Origin: an uncultured Clostridia bacterium
GTDB taxonomy: Bacteria > Bacillota > Clostridia > Oscillospirales > Acutalibacteraceae
Length of the DNA: 64,000 nucleotides
Direction: 5' to 3'
Assembly (NCBI GenBank): GCA_946484175.1
Contig: CAMLSX010000004.1
Coordinates: forward strand, 1 to 64,000
A program made the position numbers and the translations under genes. Numbering within the stretch: position 1 is the first letter of the stretch; the number at the start of each line of letters is the position of its first letter. Positions 34,750 through 43,505 of this stretch are shown piece by piece. A model generated the notes under the pieces. The model did not search any database, was not told the origin of the DNA, and worked only from the letters and a program-made list of their open reading frames with translations.

Positions 34750-35451
34750 TTATATTTTATTCAAATCACTGGAATCAAACCGTAACTTTAACTTTTGCAG
34801 TGCTTTTTTTTCGATACGCGATACATAGCTGCGGCTGATGTGAAGCCGGCCAGCCACTTCGCGCTGTGCCAGCGGTTTTCCTCCAGAAAGCCCGTAGCGT
34901 AAAAGTACGATCATACGTTCACGCGGAGAAAGGCATTCTTCAATATAATGCCGCAGCTGTTCCGACTTGATTTTCCCGTCCAGTGTTTCCAGAATATCCT
35001 CCTCAGAGGCCATGGTGTCAATAAGTGTAAGCGTGTTTCCATCCCGGTCTGTTTCAATCGGTTCGTTTAAAGAAATATCCTGTGCATTTTTCTTGCCGCT
35101 GCGAAAAAACATCAGGATTTCATTTTCTATGCATCTGGAGGCATAGCTAGAAAATCGGATATTCTTTTCAGGATCGAAGTTATCGACTGCTTTGATCAAT
35201 CCGATGGTGCCGATAGAGATCAGATCGTCCTGGTCGTTGTTTCCTGCATAATACTTTTTAATAATATGGGCTACCAGCCTCAAATTCCGTTCAACAAGTA
35301 AAGAACGGGCATCAGCATCCCCGTTATGCATTCTTTGCAGGCAGTCCCGTTCCTCCTGTGCAGAAAGCGGTTTGGGAAAAGAGCCTGCCCCTGTAACATG
35401 CAGAATGGAAAAAAACAGGTTAGAGAGCAGTTCTAATAACATCGAAAACAT
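34750..35451 (-). CDS. sigK: Sporulation sigma factor SigK (uninterrupted)
   Basis: FPKPLSAQEERDCLQRMHNGDADARSLLVERNLRLVAHIIKKYY...DDLISIGTIGLIKAVDNFDPEKNIRFSSYASRCIENEILMFFR. Confidence 0.92.
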   Translation of the reverse strand: MFSMLLELLSNLFFSILHVTGAGSFPKPLSAQEERDCLQRMHNGDADARSLLVERNLRLVAHIIKKYYAGNNDQDDLISIGTIGLIKAVDNFDPEKNIRFSSYASRCIENEILMFFRSGKKNAQDISLNEPIETDRDGNTLTLIDTMASEEDILETLDGKIKSEQLRHYIEECLSPRERMIVLLRYGLSGGKPLAQREVAGRLHISRSYVSRIEKKALQKLKLRFDSSDLNKI

Positions 35452-36122
35452 AACGATTCCCTCTTTCATGAGTGATTTTTGTTTGATGCTATCACTATAT
35501 GAAATCGGACAGGACGCTTACCACCTTTCCTAATAATAAGGAATAAAAAATTTATTACAATACAGAAGATGGAATTTTGAATTTTTGCAATATAACAAAA
35601 GATAAAAGAAACAACAATGAAAACAAACTTATTGTGCATTAAATAAATTAAAACTAAATTCAAAATATATTTTACAAAAAACCCAAAATAATAGTATTGA
35701 GTTTTTATTTATTTTTTTAATAAATAATTTTATACAATTAATAAAATTCAAATTATAATTCCATGTTTTTCCATAAATGTTTAAAAATTAGTGTTGAAAT
35801 CAAAAAATATCGATGTTATAATATGGATAACAAAGAAAAATTTGTTCTTTTTTTGAGTAGAAAAACTAAATTTATAAATTCAATCGAAATACTAATAAAA
35901 ATTATGACAAATTTTTAATAATTTGTTGTAATTTGTTGCAGTATTATATAATAAAAGATTTTTACCACTTTTTTTGATTCATACAATCCTAAATATTTGA
36001 CCAGTTTATCAGAAATTTTGCGATATTGATATCTGTTATAACAGATCTTTTTTGAGTTATTGGACTTCTGCAAGATTCATAAAAAACTGGATAAAAACAA
36101 TAAGAATTATGTTTTTGCACAA

Positions 36123-36151
36123 TTGACAAAACAGAAACATGTGATTATACT
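36123..36151 (+). promoter_or_regulatory. Promoter of the large HTH regulator
   Basis: TTGACA-N17-TATACT. Confidence 0.7.
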
Positions 36152-36225
36152 ATAATACGATGTAATATTAAAGAGAATAGGTCTGAAGTGTTTTTCAAAA
36201 AATATTTTTTAATTAGCGTTTGAGC

Positions 36226-36252
36226 ATCTGATAAGGTAAAATCTTGTCAGAT
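36226..36252. promoter_or_regulatory. Interrupted palindrome in the 5' UTR of the HTH regulator
   Basis: ATCTGATAAG-GTAAAAT-CTTGTCAGAT. Confidence 0.5.
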
Positions 36253-36281
36253 ACACAATAAACGGTCAGGATTGGAGTATT

Positions 36282-37799
36282 ATGGAGCCGAAGAACAGAT
36301 TCAGCAGTTTGTTGGAGCATCTGACAACGGTAACCGCAGTGAAACATTATATATTAGCACAGTATTTGCAGTATGATGTTTCTTACATAAGCAAGTGGAT
36401 TGGAGGCAAAGTCCTTCCCTCTGAAAAGCTGGCAGGTGCGATTTCACAGCAAATCAGCCGATGTATAGTAGAAGAAGGAAGCCAGGAAGGCTTGGTTCAG
36501 CTGATTAGTGATTATCAAGTGCAGGATGAGAATGAGCTGCAGCAGGCCATGTATGACAATCTGATTGCAGAATATGATTATGTAAGAGACCTGCAGCAGA
36601 ATAATGGAACAATAGTTGCTCCAGATGTTTCGTTTTATCCGGAACTTGCGCTGAAAGCCTTTATTGATAAAATGCACCATCCTGTGCTGAGACGTGTGAA
36701 GTCGCTGCATATTATGGCAGCTATCGACCTGTTTTCAATGGCTCACGAACATCGTCTTCATGCTTTGCGCATTGAAAAGGGAAGCTTTGTCAATCAGCAT
36801 ATGTACCCGGATGTTCATTTCTCCCTTCTTCTCAATCTGAGGGATTCGGATGAAAACGAATTGATTTATAATGCGATGTTTCTTAACAGCGTGCTTACGG
36901 CTCTTACACCGATTGATTTTCGGTTATACAGCAGTGATTTCGCTTATGGAAAAGCACTGTTTGTGGTACAGAATGATTTTGCAATTTCAGGAATGCTTAT
37001 TCGGCCGGATGCCTGTGCGGCGGTAACGGTTTGTGAAGGTGCAGATAATTCTGCGCCTCTGTATAATACGATTCAGTCTCTTTGTATGAGAGAAGCACTC
37101 CTTTTTCGAAAGATTACAATGCCGGAGCTCGTAATGGGCAGTAAGGTTTATGTTCATTCCCTGCTGTCGCCAAATCCGCGATGGTTTTTGGGGCATATTA
37201 CAGAGCATCTGTTGCCGGACGACCTTTTTGAAGAAGCCATACAAATGGCAGGGGAGACAGCAGAAAGGTTAGGAAAAGACACATTGCGGGAGATTCATAA
37301 ACTGACGGTTGCAGTAATGAAGCAAAGTCAGGTTCGAGTGCTGCTTTATGAATCTGCTATTACAGAGGCAATGATCACCGGCAATATAGACTTCTTTAAT
37401 TTTCGAATACAGTTTAATTTTGAACAGCGTGCAAGGCTGCTGCAGCATCTTCTTTCTGTGTGCTGTTCACAAGAAGGCGAATTACAGGTCCGATTGATTC
37501 ACGGACAGCTGGTAGCCGACTTTCATAATATCATCAATCCCTGCATCTTCCTTTCCAGTATGATTTCATATTTTCGTTTATATAACAGTAATGGAAACTG
37601 GAAGCTCATGTGCATCAATCTGCCGGAGATTCAATCCGTTTATGATACTTTTTTTGAAGATGTGTGGGATGGGAAAAACTGTAATATTGTGCACGACATC
37701 TCACAGATTGATCTTTATATCAATCACCTGCTCCATGGCGTTGAGCTGCTTTCCGGTACGAGACCACAGGAAACAGCTGACATGGATGTGCAGGCATAA
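36282..37799 (+). CDS. Large (505 aa) protein with N-terminal XRE-like HTH and uncharacterised C-terminal region
   Basis: LLEHLTTVTAVKHYILAQYLQYDVSYISKWIGGKVLPSEKLAGAISQQISRCIVEEG; rest not recognised. Confidence 0.7.
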   Translation: MEPKNRFSSLLEHLTTVTAVKHYILAQYLQYDVSYISKWIGGKVLPSEKLAGAISQQISRCIVEEGSQEGLVQLISDYQVQDENELQQAMYDNLIAEYDYVRDLQQNNGTIVAPDVSFYPELALKAFIDKMHHPVLRRVKSLHIMAAIDLFSMAHEHRLHALRIEKGSFVNQHMYPDVHFSLLLNLRDSDENELIYNAMFLNSVLTALTPIDFRLYSSDFAYGKALFVVQNDFAISGMLIRPDACAAVTVCEGADNSAPLYNTIQSLCMREALLFRKITMPELVMGSKVYVHSLLSPNPRWFLGHITEHLLPDDLFEEAIQMAGETAERLGKDTLREIHKLTVAVMKQSQVRVLLYESAITEAMITGNIDFFNFRIQFNFEQRARLLQHLLSVCCSQEGELQVRLIHGQLVADFHNIINPCIFLSSMISYFRLYNSNGNWKLMCINLPEIQSVYDTFFEDVWDGKNCNIVHDISQIDLYINHLLHGVELLSGTRPQETADMDVQA

Positions 37800-37917
37800 G
37801 GATGTGTAAAACTGAGCGGCTGCCTGAAAAGGTGTTGCCAGTTTTATATAAAAATATTCTAAAACCGTGCGGAAACGTGCGGGCAGAGAATGCGAAAACG
37901 AAACGAGGAGGATCCAA

Positions 37918-40900
37918 ATGAACCAATACGTCAAACGGGTTGTGTCAATCGCATTGGCTGCGGCCCTGTCGGTGCAGGTTTGTGCCCTGTGTGCCTGGTC
38001 TTCTCCGGTAAAGGGCGAAGAAACGGTTTCTGTTTCGGGCATGCATCCCTTTACCGGCACTCCTGACCTGATCCAAAGCGCCATCGAAGATTTGAAGGCG
38101 CAAGGTCAGACTGTCACAGAGGACAAACCGGATGCAAAACTGGTGAACCGTGTTGAAAAATCCAGCGGCATGTCCTTTGATACGGTAAAGTCCACTCTGA
38201 CCACTGCCCTGACAGAAGAGCGCGATGCCGGCGTGATTGATGTCGAAGAGCTGGGGCTGAGCAAAGAGGATATGGCAAAAGTGATGCAGGATGCACTGTA
38301 TGACACTTACATGAATAATGCCATTTCCAATGTAAGCTACACAACCTCCGACGGTAAAGTAACCGAAATCTCTTATGAGATGAGCGAAGGTTATGCAGCT
38401 GCCCTGGATGCTGTAGAGGAAGAAGCAGATCCTGAAATCATGGAGAACGCTGATGAAGCTGTACAGGAAGAGGCTGTAAATCAGGCTGCAGAGCAGGCTG
38501 CTTACAGAGTTTCTGTTATGGCAGAGGACGCCGAGGGTTCTGCCTGCACCAACCATACCGTCGGCGGCACTTCCCTGAGAGGCGACTGCAATGGTGATGG
38601 CAGTGTGGATATTTTTGATGTTGTTGAAATCCGCAATATGGTGCTGGGCGAAGCAGAGGAAAAAGACGTTGCTGATTGCAATGAGGATGGCGTTGTAGAC
38701 CTTTACGACGTAGTTAAGGCCCGGAATATTGCCAGCGGCGTTGAGGAAGCTCCCAGCATGGGCGATGGCACCATAGAATTCACTTGGACTGAGTACGTCG
38801 ATATCACTCCTATTACCGATGGAGAGGGCAATGTGCTTAACGGCGGCCTGATCTATAATGCTGAGACCAAGCAGATTGAGCAGGGTATCCTGCCGAATTA
38901 CTACTGGACTCTCACCAAGATCAGCTTCCAGTGCGCAGAGTGTGGGGAAGAGGTTGTCATTGATGATCCCGACGTTTTGCAGAACTTCGTCTCCACCTAT
39001 GACATCTATGTCAATGTCAATACTGGCGCTGTTGTGCAGTGCGAACCCGGTCAGAAGCCTACTTTGGGTGAGGGCGAAACAGAGGATGATTATCTTCTGT
39101 ATACCGATATGAACGTGGCCACCTATATGGACGATACCTTCACAAATACTCAGGATGAAGAAGGTAACTATATTGGCTTGTATGTTGACAGCCGCGATAA
39201 CGGCTCTTTGGAAGTAGAGCGTTATTATGGCATGATGAGTGCTTTTAACGCAGATAATGCGGAGTATTTTGGCGTTTCTGCCGATTACTGGACTTCCAAG
39301 AACACGGAAGGCAACCCCATGGGCGCTGTAAAGTCAATGTGCAACCTTGACCCGAATCAGGATGTGCCTCCGGCACAGATGATTCAGATGGTACAGATGC
39401 TGCCCCAGGCATTCATGGCTTACGTCATGTACTATGGCCCTGAGCTGCTGGCAATGCGTGACCAGGCAATGGCAACTGTAAACGCTCTGCCCGAAGGTAC
39501 TACCGAAGAGCAGAAGCTGCTGGTGCTGCACGACTGGCTGGCAGAAAATGCAACCTTTGATATGGGTGCCATGACTACCATCAACCAGTCTGGCGGTACT
39601 CCCGAAACTGACCCCATCCAGATGACTACTTTCGGTTGCCTGCTGAGCAACCAGCTGAGTGAGATGCCCACTTATGCTGATGAAAATGGTCAGCAGAAGA
39701 AGTACTATGGTGCTATCTGCTTGGGCTATGCAGCAGGATATTCCTATCTCGTGCAGAACATGCATCCCGAGATTTATAAGACTGAAAAGACTGTAACCGA
39801 CGAAGAAGGCAATGAGACCACTGAGCTGGTTTGGTGCACGCCTGAGGAAGTTGATGCCAATGGCGGCGATGTCGTTGACTTCGTGCAGGTTATGTTCTAT
39901 GCCGATACAGCCGACACCAGTGTGGCTGGCGAGGGCTTTGGCGGCGGCGCTTTCAACAACGTTCACTATATGAATGCAGTCCGTTTGCCCGATGCTCCCA
40001 ATGCCGATACCGACGGCGAATGGTTCTTTGTAGATGCCTGCTATGATGACATCTATGTTGAATGCATGACCCAGTATCGCGGCGAAGCCGACGGCAGCGT
40101 CTACCATATGTATTTCCTGGTTTCTCCCGAAACGATGGGAAATCTCTATGAAGGTTCCATTGACTATATTGACAGCCAGTATGATGGCGTCACCTATGTC
40201 CCGCAGGTGGACGAGAACGGTAATGTGCTCGTTCCTTCCGACAATATTCCCGAAGACAGCGAGAGTTACGATCCGAATCATCCCAAGTATGAAAAAGTTG
40301 AAAATCCGGATGAAATCAAGAGCAATAATGTCTGCTACGAAGACAGCTGGTTCAGCGGCGCTATCAGTAAGATCTATAACGACGGTACCAACTGGTATTA
40401 TGTAGATGGCGGCACGACGCTGGCTTCCTACCGCCAGATGATGGAGCAGGGAGACGATTCCGGCAGCAGCGGTGAAGATTACAATATCGATATAGATGCA
40501 ATGATGCACAGTAATCGTGTGGACCGCGAAAACGGCGACAAGATGAAGATGCGTGCAATGACAGACCCCGATTATTGGGAGGACAGCAGCTCCGGCAGTT
40601 CCGGCTTTATGGACAGCGCTAAAGAAGATACCTATGCAGAGATCCTGTTCGATTATGGTACTGGCGAATTCCCGAACGACGATGTTGAAGGCTTGGAACT
40701 GGCTGACGAAGTGAAACTGGACTTCACCTTCAACGAGCAGTATCCTGCACTGACCCACAGCCTGGGCCTGTACGGCAATCAGTTGTATTTCAACCTGAAT
40801 AATACGATTTATACCTACAATCTGGCTGCTGAAGACGGTGTCAGCCCGCTGGGTGTTCTGAAGGAATATAACGACGTCACCTACAGCGGCGATGGACGCG

Positions 40901-42402
40901 CCTTTACCGCTACTTCCTATTATGTAGACCCCGAGGGCGATAAGACGGTTTCCAACAAGCCGATCGCAGCTCTGTGCGTGTACAACGATTACGATTTTGC
41001 AAACAGCTATGATCCGATTATGCAGGACGGTCAAGTTGTCGGCTTGCAGTTTAATCCTGAAAAGCTGAAGGCTGTCCCCACTATGACGGTCAATATTGCA
41101 ACCAATTACACCTTCTCTTATCCGAATATGGACGAGTCCTATACGAAGGAAGCAATTAACTACAACCCGGATTATCAGCTCCGGCTCAGCGATGAAAATG
41201 ATAACGCCAACGAAGAATTCCTGTGGTGTGCCAATATCCGCGAGGATATGCCCATGGAAGCAATGCTGGCTGACCTGAGCGGCGAGGCTTCCGATGTGAG
41301 CGTGGATGCTACCTGCTATTCCCCCGCCTTTACCCAGAAGCGTACCAATGCATATGGCTTGGTTGCTGGTGATAAGGTGATTGCAGAGGGTGCAGAGGCT
41401 ACCGGACACAACTATGTGTATAATGCAGAAGAGCAGGCTTATATCTGCGAAAACTGCAGCCTGCATGCAGCTGTCGTAATGAATGTTGGTGAAAATGGAA
41501 CTGCTACCATGACTTCTCTGGCCGATTCCGGTATGGGCGACCTGGGCGGAATCATGGGCGGTGATTCCGAAGTAACCCCTGTGGATCCTGAGCGTGAGGC
41601 TGCTACCAAGGCAGAAGGCGGCATGATCCAGTTGAATATCACCCCGGACGAAGGATATCAGATTGGCTCCGTTTATTATGTGGCCGAAACTCCGGCAGCC
41701 GAGGAAGAAACCCCCGATGAGCCCGAAACCGCAGCAGAAACCGATGAAACAGTCAATAAGGTTGAGATTGCTCAGAACGGAGAAGGCGTTTATGAATTCA
41801 CCAAGCCCGCTGAGTGCGTAACAGTCTATGTTGAGTTTGAAGAGGTTGTTGTAGAGCCGGAAACTTATACAGTTACCGCTGCTGCAGCAGAAAATGGCAC
41901 TGTAGAGGTTTCCCCCGAAGAGGCAAAAGCCGATGACACTGTAAAGATCACCGCAACTCCTGCTGAGGGATATAAAATCGCAGAAGTAACATACACCTAT
42001 ACGGATGCTGCTTCCAGCGAACAAAAAACAGAGACCATCACCGCTGCTGAGGATGGAACCTATACCTTTACTATGCCGGCAGCTGACGTAACAGTTTCTG
42101 TTAAATTTGAGCAGGATGTTACAGAGCCGGAAACCACTTATTTGGTAAACGTTACTGCAGAAAATGGTACTGTAGAAGTTTCTCCGAAAGAAGCCAAAGC
42201 TGACGAAACCGTAACGGTTACTGCAACTCCTAATGATGGATTCAAAATTGCAGCAGTAACGTACGCTTATACAGATGCAGACGGCGGAGTGCAAAAAGGG
42301 GAACTCACTCCTGCAGAGGATGGAACCTATACCTTTACTATGCCGAAAGCTGAAGTTACGGTAACGGTTATGTTTGAACCAGTGGGGGAAACTGGTGAAT
42401 AA
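37918..42402 (+). CDS. Secreted dockerin-bearing multidomain protein with transglutaminase-like region and C-terminal bacterial repeats
   Basis: Signal peptide MNQYVKRVVSIALAAALSVQVCALCAWS; dockerin GDCNGDGSVDIFDVVEIRNMVLG...ADCNEDGVVDLYDVVKARNIASG; YGAICLGYAAGYSYLV / NNVHYMNAVRL / WFFVDACYDD; repeats YTVTAAAAENGTVEVSPEEAKADDTVKITATPAEGYKI...TFTMPAADVTVSVKFE. Confidence 0.88.
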   Translation: MNQYVKRVVSIALAAALSVQVCALCAWSSPVKGEETVSVSGMHPFTGTPDLIQSAIEDLKAQGQTVTEDKPDAKLVNRVEKSSGMSFDTVKSTLTTALTEERDAGVIDVEELGLSKEDMAKVMQDALYDTYMNNAISNVSYTTSDGKVTEISYEMSEGYAAALDAVEEEADPEIMENADEAVQEEAVNQAAEQAAYRVSVMAEDAEGSACTNHTVGGTSLRGDCNGDGSVDIFDVVEIRNMVLGEAEEKDVADCNEDGVVDLYDVVKARNIASGVEEAPSMGDGTIEFTWTEYVDITPITDGEGNVLNGGLIYNAETKQIEQGILPNYYWTLTKISFQCAECGEEVVIDDPDVLQNFVSTYDIYVNVNTGAVVQCEPGQKPTLGEGETEDDYLLYTDMNVATYMDDTFTNTQDEEGNYIGLYVDSRDNGSLEVERYYGMMSAFNADNAEYFGVSADYWTSKNTEGNPMGAVKSMCNLDPNQDVPPAQMIQMVQMLPQAFMAYVMYYGPELLAMRDQAMATVNALPEGTTEEQKLLVLHDWLAENATFDMGAMTTINQSGGTPETDPIQMTTFGCLLSNQLSEMPTYADENGQQKKYYGAICLGYAAGYSYLVQNMHPEIYKTEKTVTDEEGNETTELVWCTPEEVDANGGDVVDFVQVMFYADTADTSVAGEGFGGGAFNNVHYMNAVRLPDAPNADTDGEWFFVDACYDDIYVECMTQYRGEADGSVYHMYFLVSPETMGNLYEGSIDYIDSQYDGVTYVPQVDENGNVLVPSDNIPEDSESYDPNHPKYEKVENPDEIKSNNVCYEDSWFSGAISKIYNDGTNWYYVDGGTTLASYRQMMEQGDDSGSSGEDYNIDIDAMMHSNRVDRENGDKMKMRAMTDPDYWEDSSSGSSGFMDSAKEDTYAEILFDYGTGEFPNDDVEGLELADEVKLDFTFNEQYPALTHSLGLYGNQLYFNLNNTIYTYNLAAEDGVSPLGVLKEYNDVTYSGDGRAFTATSYYVDPEGDKTVSNKPIAALCVYNDYDFANSYDPIMQDGQVVGLQFNPEKLKAVPTMTVNIATNYTFSYPNMDESYTKEAINYNPDYQLRLSDENDNANEEFLWCANIREDMPMEAMLADLSGEASDVSVDATCYSPAFTQKRTNAYGLVAGDKVIAEGAEATGHNYVYNAEEQAYICENCSLHAAVVMNVGENGTATMTSLADSGMGDLGGIMGGDSEVTPVDPEREAATKAEGGMIQLNITPDEGYQIGSVYYVAETPAAEEETPDEPETAAETDETVNKVEIAQNGEGVYEFTKPAECVTVYVEFEEVVVEPETYTVTAAAAENGTVEVSPEEAKADDTVKITATPAEGYKIAEVTYTYTDAASSEQKTETITAAEDGTYTFTMPAADVTVSVKFEQDVTEPETTYLVNVTAENGTVEVSPKEAKADETVTVTATPNDGFKIAAVTYAYTDADGGVQKGELTPAEDGTYTFTMPKAEVTVTVMFEPVGETGE

Positions 42403-42424
42403 TACCAGCGGCCTTACTGAAGCA

Positions 42425-42558
42425 GGGTTTTCTGTGCAGCAGAAAATCCCATTATAACCACACAGAATCCTGTGTATTCTGTGCAGTTATTCTCTCTTGT
42501 ATCCAATGCAGGAAATGCTTTATAGATTTTCCCGGGCTTTCAAAGCGCGGGAAAATCT
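42425..42558 (+). promoter_or_regulatory. Three consecutive RNA hairpins in the dockerin-cohesin intergenic region, no U tracts
   Basis: GGGTTTTCTG/CAGAAAATCCC (42425-42450); CACAGAAT/ATTCTGTG (42461-42483); AGATTTTCCCG/CGGGAAAATCT (42524-42558). Confidence 0.6.
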
Positions 42559-42604
42559 TGCAGCATCTTTCTGTTTGGGAAAATATTAAGGAGGTATCAT
42601 AACC

Positions 42605-43444
42605 ATGAAAAAGAAAATCATTTCTTTTCTGTGCGTGCTGTGCCTGGCAGTGACTATGTGCACAACTGTTTTTGCGGCTGAAGGCGACACAGAAAAGGGT
42701 AACACCAAGCTTTCTCTGACCGCAGCTCTGAGCGCGGACAAGGCAAAAATTGATGTTACAATCAGCCTTACTGAAACTACCCCCATTAAAGGTATTCAGT
42801 TTGATCTGGCCTATGAGGGAGAGAAAGTAGACCCGGTTGAAACTGCAGATGTCGCAACCAACATTTTTGATAGTGCTCTGACCAGTTTCCCCAAGAACGT
42901 TCCGGATACTTGCAGATATCTGGGCGATAACGGAACTGCTATTACCACTACCGGTCGTTTGGTTACCTTTAGCTTTAACGTTAAGGCAGGCGTGACTGGA
43001 GATATTTCCTTTAATGTGAATGGCTTGAAGGTTGCTGATAAGGATGCTAAGCCTGTAGATGCTACCATTACTCCCAGCGAAATTACCGTGACCATTCCGG
43101 CTGTGCAGCCGACCGCAACTCCCGAGCCGACCGCAGAGCCTACTGCAGAGCCGACCGCAGAGCCTACTGCAGAGCCGACCGCAGAGCCTACTGCTGATCC
43201 GACCACCGATCCGACTACCGATCCTAGCACTGATCCGACCGATAAGCCCACTACTGAGCCGACCACTGCTCCCGGTTCTTCCGAAAGCAGCACCAGCTCT
43301 CAGGCTCCCAACGCTACCACCAATCCCGATAAATCTCCTTCTACGGGAGATGCCACCAATGTAACTCTGTACATTGTTCTGGCACTGGTTTGCGTAGCTG
43401 CTATGGGCGGCGTGGTTGTTTATCGCCGTAAGGTAAGCCACTAA
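42605..43444 (+). CDS. Single-cohesin-like surface protein with P/T/E repeat stalk and SPSTGD-TM-basic sorting-like tail
   Basis: Signal peptide; VTISLTETTPIKGIQFDLAYEGEKVDPVE...LVTFSFNVKAGVTGDISFNVNGLKVAD; PTAEPTAEPTAE...; KSPSTGDATNVTLYIVLALVCVAAMGGVVVYRRKVSH. Confidence 0.85.
   Translation: MKKKIISFLCVLCLAVTMCTTVFAAEGDTEKGNTKLSLTAALSADKAKIDVTISLTETTPIKGIQFDLAYEGEKVDPVETADVATNIFDSALTSFPKNVPDTCRYLGDNGTAITTTGRLVTFSFNVKAGVTGDISFNVNGLKVADKDAKPVDATITPSEITVTIPAVQPTATPEPTAEPTAEPTAEPTAEPTAEPTADPTTDPTTDPSTDPTDKPTTEPTTAPGSSESSTSSQAPNATTNPDKSPSTGDATNVTLYIVLALVCVAAMGGVVVYRRKVSH
43111..43270 (+). repeat. Short tandem repeat encoding PTAEPTAE / PTTDPTTD stalk
   Basis: Repeated ccgaccgcagagcctactgcagag units. 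Confidence 0.9.
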
Positions 43445-43469: not shown

Positions 43470-43505
43470 AGGAGACGCTGTCGTAATGGCAGCGTCTCTG
43501 TTTTT
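43470..43505 (+). terminator. Terminator after cohesin gene
   Basis: GGAGACGCTGTC-GTAAT-GGCAGCGTCTCTGTTTTT. Confidence 0.85.

Follow-up and report, generated by a model that had tools for sequence, protein, structure and literature searches.

The locus lies at positions 36282 to 43444 of the window, by which we mean the whole 64,000-nucleotide stretch analyzed (positions 1 to 64,000 of contig CAMLSX010000004.1, assembly GCA_946484175.1). The genome to which it belongs (G000) is 61.5% complete. Three open reading frames (ORFs) follow one another on the plus strand at 36282 to 37799, 37867 to 42402, and 42605 to 43444, as the original prediction had placed them. The features are listed below in genomic order.

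36123..36151, plus strand: sigma-70-like promoter TTGACA-17-TATACT (11/12 consensus match), upstream of the HTH gene
36282..37799, plus strand: ORF for a 505-amino-acid (aa) protein with an N-terminal HTH-like segment (YDVSYISKW...LP); a neighbor, probably outside the tether unit
37918..42402, plus strand: dockerin protein gene; product secreted, signal peptide MNQYVKRVVSIALAAALSVQVCALCAW, without an anchor of its own; near-full-length homologue L003 at 51% identity
38578..38730, plus strand: dockerin domain with two Ca-binding repeats (residues 238 to 288 counted from GTG 37867; PF00404), kept in L003
39493..40071, plus strand: transglutaminase-like region by profile match, with candidate triad Cys618 (codon 39718), His700 (39964), and Asp723 (40033)
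41863..42390, plus strand: divergent InlB B-repeats (PF18998 Flg_new_2, E 3.8e-20, two stretches)
42605..43444, plus strand: ORF for a single-cohesin surface protein of 279 aa with signal peptide, stalk, and anchor; Shine-Dalgarno AAGGAGG
42722..43090, plus strand: cohesin domain, residues 40 to 162 (PF00963; genome-wide match 42716 to 43090)
43106..43324, plus strand: P/T/E-rich stalk (PF04886 PT repeat, E 2e-7, and sequence)
43334..43441, plus strand: SPSTGD, transmembrane helix, and RRKVSH tail, an LPXTG-like sorting signal (TIGR01167; C-terminal hydropathy 2.65)
43471..43499, plus strand: intrinsic-terminator-like hairpin of 13 pairs followed by a T-rich tail, 3' of the cohesin gene

Cohesin and dockerin proteins of the locus

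The second ORF encodes 1,511 aa when counted from a GTG at 37867 and 1,494 aa from an ATG at 37918. The ATG is likely the true start, judging from the AGGAGG that precedes it, the normal signal peptide that begins there, and the similar arrangement of L003, its homologue in the metagenome-assembled genome (MAG) SIG467 (genome G398). The Dockerin_1 profile (PF00404) matches the 1,511-aa protein above the Pfam cut-off (E 2.5e-7; 31.2 bits versus 22.9), and the canonical Ca-loop, D-x-N-x-D-x3-D-x2-D, can be read twice in the sequence, which bears out the complete dockerin duplication claimed for this protein. The dockerin of the window protein is internal, whereas the other surveyed pairs have a C-terminal one. 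No glycosidase family was found above cut-off in the dockerin protein with Pfam and NCBIfam.

The 279-aa protein encoded downstream matches the Cohesin profile PF00963 (E 2.7e-6; 28.0 bits versus a Pfam cut-off of 24.1). Its C terminus combines the sorting motif, hydrophobic helix, and positive tail of LPXTG-type substrates; it scores 17.7 bits with the NCBIfam model LPXTG_anchor (TIGR01167, cut-off 15.9) and 14.0 with Pfam Gram_pos_anchor, under the 20-bit cut-off. Together with the PF04886 match in the stalk, these results agree with the predicted architecture of a single cohesin, a P/T/E stalk, and an SPSTGD-helix-RRK tail. A sortase gene was not detected in the 61.5% of the window genome that is present, and was found in 11/11 other genomes searched. 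Matches of the cohesin protein to PDB entries were rejected, being only of low complexity and to a repeat of an unrelated protein. The gap between the dockerin and cohesin genes is 202 bp, wider than in other pairs (mostly below 50 bp), and no RNA families were matched at the locus.

A genome-wide profile search returned a single dockerin and a single cohesin, both within 36282 to 43444. Since the genome is only 61.5% complete, their status as the only cohesin and dockerin is provisional, and more may exist in the missing part. This incompleteness leaves room for the view that the pair is the remnant of a more extensive cellulosome-like assembly, with further dockerin enzymes and multi-cohesin scaffolds encoded in the ~38% of the genome that is missing and the cohesin acting as a ScaE-like anchor for multiple clients. 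However, no second dockerin occurs in the 61.5% that is present.

The candidate transglutaminase-like region

The original prediction recognized no domains beyond the dockerin in the 1,511-aa protein and none in the C-terminal part of the 505-aa protein. This was correct for the latter, which falls in no family above cut-off in Pfam, NCBIfam, or PHROG, and has to be revised for the former, in which InlB B-repeats and a transglutaminase-like region are present. A profile built from four unrelated transglutaminase proteins gives the window core 29.0 bits, whereas 400 shuffled sequences reach at most 5.3. The profile alignment spans the N-terminal helices and the W-x-x-VD motif, the Cys and His being placed by motif only. 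Cys618, His700, and Asp723 are conserved in L003 within the motifs IC-x-x-YA, NNVHY-x-NAV, and W-F-x-VDACYDD. In addition, a search of 1,463 ORFs with the single transglutaminase sequence L070 (PF01841, 2.1e-11) picks out the window protein as well as L003, and hhalign assigns the region a probability of 83.6% over 52 columns.

The assignment lies below Pfam detection, with no PF01841 match in the window protein or in L003, and profile searches found no PDB relative of either the region or the whole core of the protein. AlphaFold2 models built from two sequences reached a pLDDT of 40 for the region alone, with no credible Foldseek match, and of 30 for the 898-aa core. Given the lack of a Pfam match and these low-pLDDT models, the membership of a divergent region in the transglutaminase-like superfamily is a well-supported suggestion and not a proven fold. 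The region possibly functions as a cysteine peptidase or transamidase, with a surface protein or peptide as its putative substrate.

Recurrence of the gene pair in relatives and across the family

L003 is the only near-full-length relative found for the window dockerin protein; like it, L003 keeps the dockerin and has no anchor. A whole-protein search of 398 genomes gave matches beyond the window only to InlB repeats or the dockerin, and a core profile run against the same 398 genomes yielded no second homologue of the core. A weak core-profile match in G074 was rejected as an unrelated FHA/FtsK-like protein.

The 3' end of L003 is cut by a contig end, inside an 18-nucleotide repeat encoding PVDPET. 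The best cohesin match of SIG467 sits near the end of a second contig which, when read toward the gene, carries the same 18-nucleotide repeat in the same frame, a stop (…PVVPETPVE*), about 240 bp, and then the cohesin gene. The two contig ends share an exact 64-bp overlap, and the repeat, as a double unit, is absent from all other fetched loci. SIG467 therefore appears to carry a dockerin gene followed by a single-cohesin gene, split by an assembly break, a reading that derives from the repeat and not from a sequenced junction. The SIG467 assembly has a low coverage of 1.35x, and the linking repeat could in principle recur elsewhere in that genome. Besides a signal peptide and its single cohesin, the cohesin protein in question (919 aa) has nine InlB-type repeats, a stalk of acidic character, and a C-terminal helix with KKRR. 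Of the ~70 survey cohesins compared, the window cohesin resembles that of this protein most (27%, E 2e-6). SIG467 has two cohesins, one of them under the Pfam cut-off, and two dockerins, arranged as two gene pairs; the genes of the second pair adjoin, 9 bp apart. Having two of each, paired, SIG467 does not resemble what a cellulosome remnant would predict.

The flanking genes differ between SIG467 and the window while the pair persists. This bears on a further explanation, in which the cohesin is a generic adhesive fold and the dockerin a Ca-binding stabilizer, vestigial or independent of one another, and their adjacency reflects operon history only. The maintenance of the pair amid different neighbors argues against it, as do the Ca-ligand positions, which are intact in both dockerin repeats of the window protein and of L003.

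The same comparison separates the pair from the HTH gene, which the original prediction had named as the system's own regulator. Such a role would fit its location on the same strand, 118 bp from the probable dockerin gene start at ATG 37918, with no listed promoter- or terminator-like site in that gap, a promoter-like site 5' of the HTH gene, and a terminator-like hairpin only 3' of the cohesin gene. It is possible that the HTH gene and the pair share one transcript in the window genome. The region is not enriched in promoter-like sites over shuffled sequence, so that the match at 36123 to 36151 is weak evidence. However, a resolvase takes the place of the HTH gene upstream of the SIG467 homologue, and no HTH gene occurs among the annotated neighbors of the surveyed dockerin-cohesin pairs. 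The 505-aa protein has no match in 297/300 genomes of the family. Its two full-length relatives (L035 and L036; 21 to 23% identity), from two genomes of one other genus, adjoin metabolic genes of no apparent relation (glyoxalase-like and BadF-like), with no cohesin nearby. A dedicated regulator of the surface pair is thus unlikely; the gene is probably a neighbor and not a component of the tether, and nothing ties its product to cohesin-dockerin function. In terms of synteny, the trio is conserved in none of the relatives, and the dockerin-cohesin pair recurs.

An intergenic stretch of ~800 bp (35470 to 36281), with a GC content down to about 27% and no RNA family match, separates the HTH gene from a divergent minus-strand gene at 34750 to 35469 that encodes a sigma-70-family protein (Pfam Sigma70_r2/r4).

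No cohesin was found in the four other genomes of the genus, so the window pair is not genus-conserved. The four congeners together hold one dockerin, a further point against a cellulosome remnant. That dockerin, in G001, was considered as a same-genus partner and dropped: it is N-terminal and unrelated, and the stretch fetched around it, which stops at a contig end, has no cohesin-like ORF. This protein (G001:C17:14327; L214, L221), from a congener without a cohesin match, carries the dockerin sequence YGDADGNGKVELLDV..., a type also present in G035, G081, and G276.

At the level of the family, 204/300 genomes have a cohesin match. Only one cohesin match was reported for 80 genomes; by our count, a dockerin is present in 71 of these, and 44 carry exactly one. 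We scanned 78 cohesin loci from single-cohesin genomes and the window (79 in total) with purpose-built dockerin and cohesin profiles. At 21 of the 79 loci, representing 19 genera, the gene immediately 5' of the cohesin gene, in the same orientation, encodes a dockerin protein; the gaps range from -56 to 202 bp and are usually below 50 bp. With ~2,000 genes per genome, chance placement is estimated to give well below one such neighbor. The remaining loci show the reverse order (1), both domains in one ORF (9), or no dockerin next door (48). Most cohesin partners have a C-terminal hydrophobic helix, accompanied in some of them by an LPXTG-like motif, and none of the listed dockerin partners has a helix as strong. 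SIG467 and the 21 surveyed loci thereby repeat the layout of the postulated two-part display device, in which the cohesin protein is anchored and the dockerin protein is not.

These counts weigh on both explanations raised above. Some family members have one detected cohesin and dozens of dockerins, as a multi-client anchor would require, but in 44 of the 80 genomes with one cohesin just a single dockerin was matched; together with the genomic evidence given above, this makes a cellulosome remnant unlikely. The 48 loci without an adjoining dockerin gene indicate that a lone cohesin-like domain can exist without an obvious partner next to it, and cohesin-like folds are described outside cohesin-dockerin systems (PMC6030884). 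Against this, the pairing is repeated across 19 genera, and we consider vestigial or independent domains very unlikely.

The payloads of the dockerin partners vary. Six aligned partners share the order SH3, glucosaminidase, cadherin-like, dockerin, and a profile of these six finds glucosaminidase structures of the SagB and autolysin types (best E 3e-27). Others are leucine-rich-repeat proteins, CHAP or weak NlpC/P60-type proteins with Flg_new and Big_3, or Ig/GLUG-type proteins. These payloads point to cell-envelope enzymes and adhesin-like proteins, not cellulases, as the usual clients of such pairs. The glucosaminidase-dockerin ORFs lie directly upstream of a single-cohesin ORF at L133, L135, L137, L138, L139, and L141 (six genera), and these pairs are possible membrane-tethered autolysins.

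Two other arrangements were observed. One is a class of single-cohesin proteins of ~340 to 420 aa with no adjoining dockerin gene (L146, L152 to L157, L160, L161, L163, L164, L166 to L168, and others); the cohesin genes of L155, L156, L157, L164, and L166 adjoin a gene for a small conserved protein beginning ML..LSFLNMLVWNLVIVGLWH. In the other, found where only one cohesin per genome was reported, cohesin and dockerin share one polypeptide (L159, L165, L183, L205, L209 to L213, G081:C59, and G276:C14), which might permit self-association.

A putative one-to-one tether and its known counterparts

The domains, the anchor asymmetry, and the recurrence of the pair are established at the level of predicted proteins and gene order. 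The dockerin-cohesin pair of the locus is probably a dedicated one-to-one surface tether, with binding, catalysis, and substrate as its predicted properties. After export, the cohesin protein would stay at the envelope through its C-terminal helix, either in the membrane or, after sortase cleavage, at the wall, and the stalk would raise the cohesin outward. The dockerin protein, encoded just upstream, would be secreted without an anchor and captured by the anchored cohesin through its Ca-dependent dockerin. Such capture would retain the transglutaminase-like enzyme, followed by the InlB-type repeats, on the producing cell. The hallmarks of a cellulosome were not observed: there is no multi-cohesin scaffoldin (one cohesin here and two single ones in SIG467) and no set of multiple dockerin-bearing carbohydrate-active enzymes.

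The closest known counterpart of the anchor is ScaE of Ruminococcus flavefaciens, a single-cohesin, sortase-anchored protein with several clients (PMC3573020, PMC4081043). ScaE likewise has one cohesin and a C-terminal sortase-type signal, and captures secreted dockerin proteins, one of them cysteine-peptidase-like; that its cohesin takes several clients, among them an NlpC/P60-like protein (PMC3573020), is a precedent for a multi-client anchor in the window. However, ScaE serves several X-dockerin clients within a large cellulosome, whereas the window has one cohesin gene beside one dockerin gene and no scaffold was found. The counterpart of the client is group 4b of R. flavefaciens FD-1, transglutaminase-like dockerin proteins in which a signal peptide, a transglutaminase-like region, and a dockerin are combined in one secreted protein (PMC2930009), a precedent that also suits a cellulosome remnant. 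These differ in their C-terminal dockerin, their tandem copies, and their place in a cellulosome with 222 dockerin proteins; in the window protein, the dockerin is internal and its own cohesin gene is next downstream.

In R. albus, a single cohesin has been suggested to anchor dockerin enzymes (PMC6118326). Proteins with one cohesin and "of unknown function" also appear in a 2024 genomic survey of cellulosome bacteria; a number of them carry a transmembrane helix at the C terminus, and the survey's account of them, as far as consulted, describes no paired neighboring dockerin gene (PMC11557425). One-to-one, noncellulosomal use is represented by the pairwise cohesin-dockerin contacts of Clostridium perfringens glycosidases, as described in PMC12997984; there, both partners carry glycosidase domains, whereas the window cohesin protein is an anchor only and its partner's payload contains no glycosidase. 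Noncellulosomal use of cohesin and dockerin is already known, and the adjoining anchor-client pair would be a further form of it. In the open-access literature searched, no description of neighboring one-to-one pairs or of cohesin-tethered autolysins was found.

For the family as a whole, one-to-one pairs may form a widespread noncellulosomal envelope tether that holds envelope enzymes (SagB-like glucosaminidases and NlpC/CHAP-type and transglutaminase-like proteins) and leucine-rich-repeat proteins on the cell's own surface, with pair-specific recognition letting several pairs coexist; we regard this generalization as plausible, with belief and doubt in balance.

To our knowledge, research on cohesin-dockerin pairs has dealt almost exclusively with their role in holding cellulosomes together. 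The recurrence of the pairs in at least 19 genera suggests that this chemistry is used well beyond cellulose-digesting complexes. If the pairs bind, they may in this family serve most often in a simpler form, with one anchor, one client, and genes side by side. The adjoining pairs would then offer ready cognate combinations from many genera, making cohesin-dockerin specificity directly testable, as well as orthogonal parts for protein display, and would provide a handle on how gut Firmicutes retain wall-acting enzymes at their surface.
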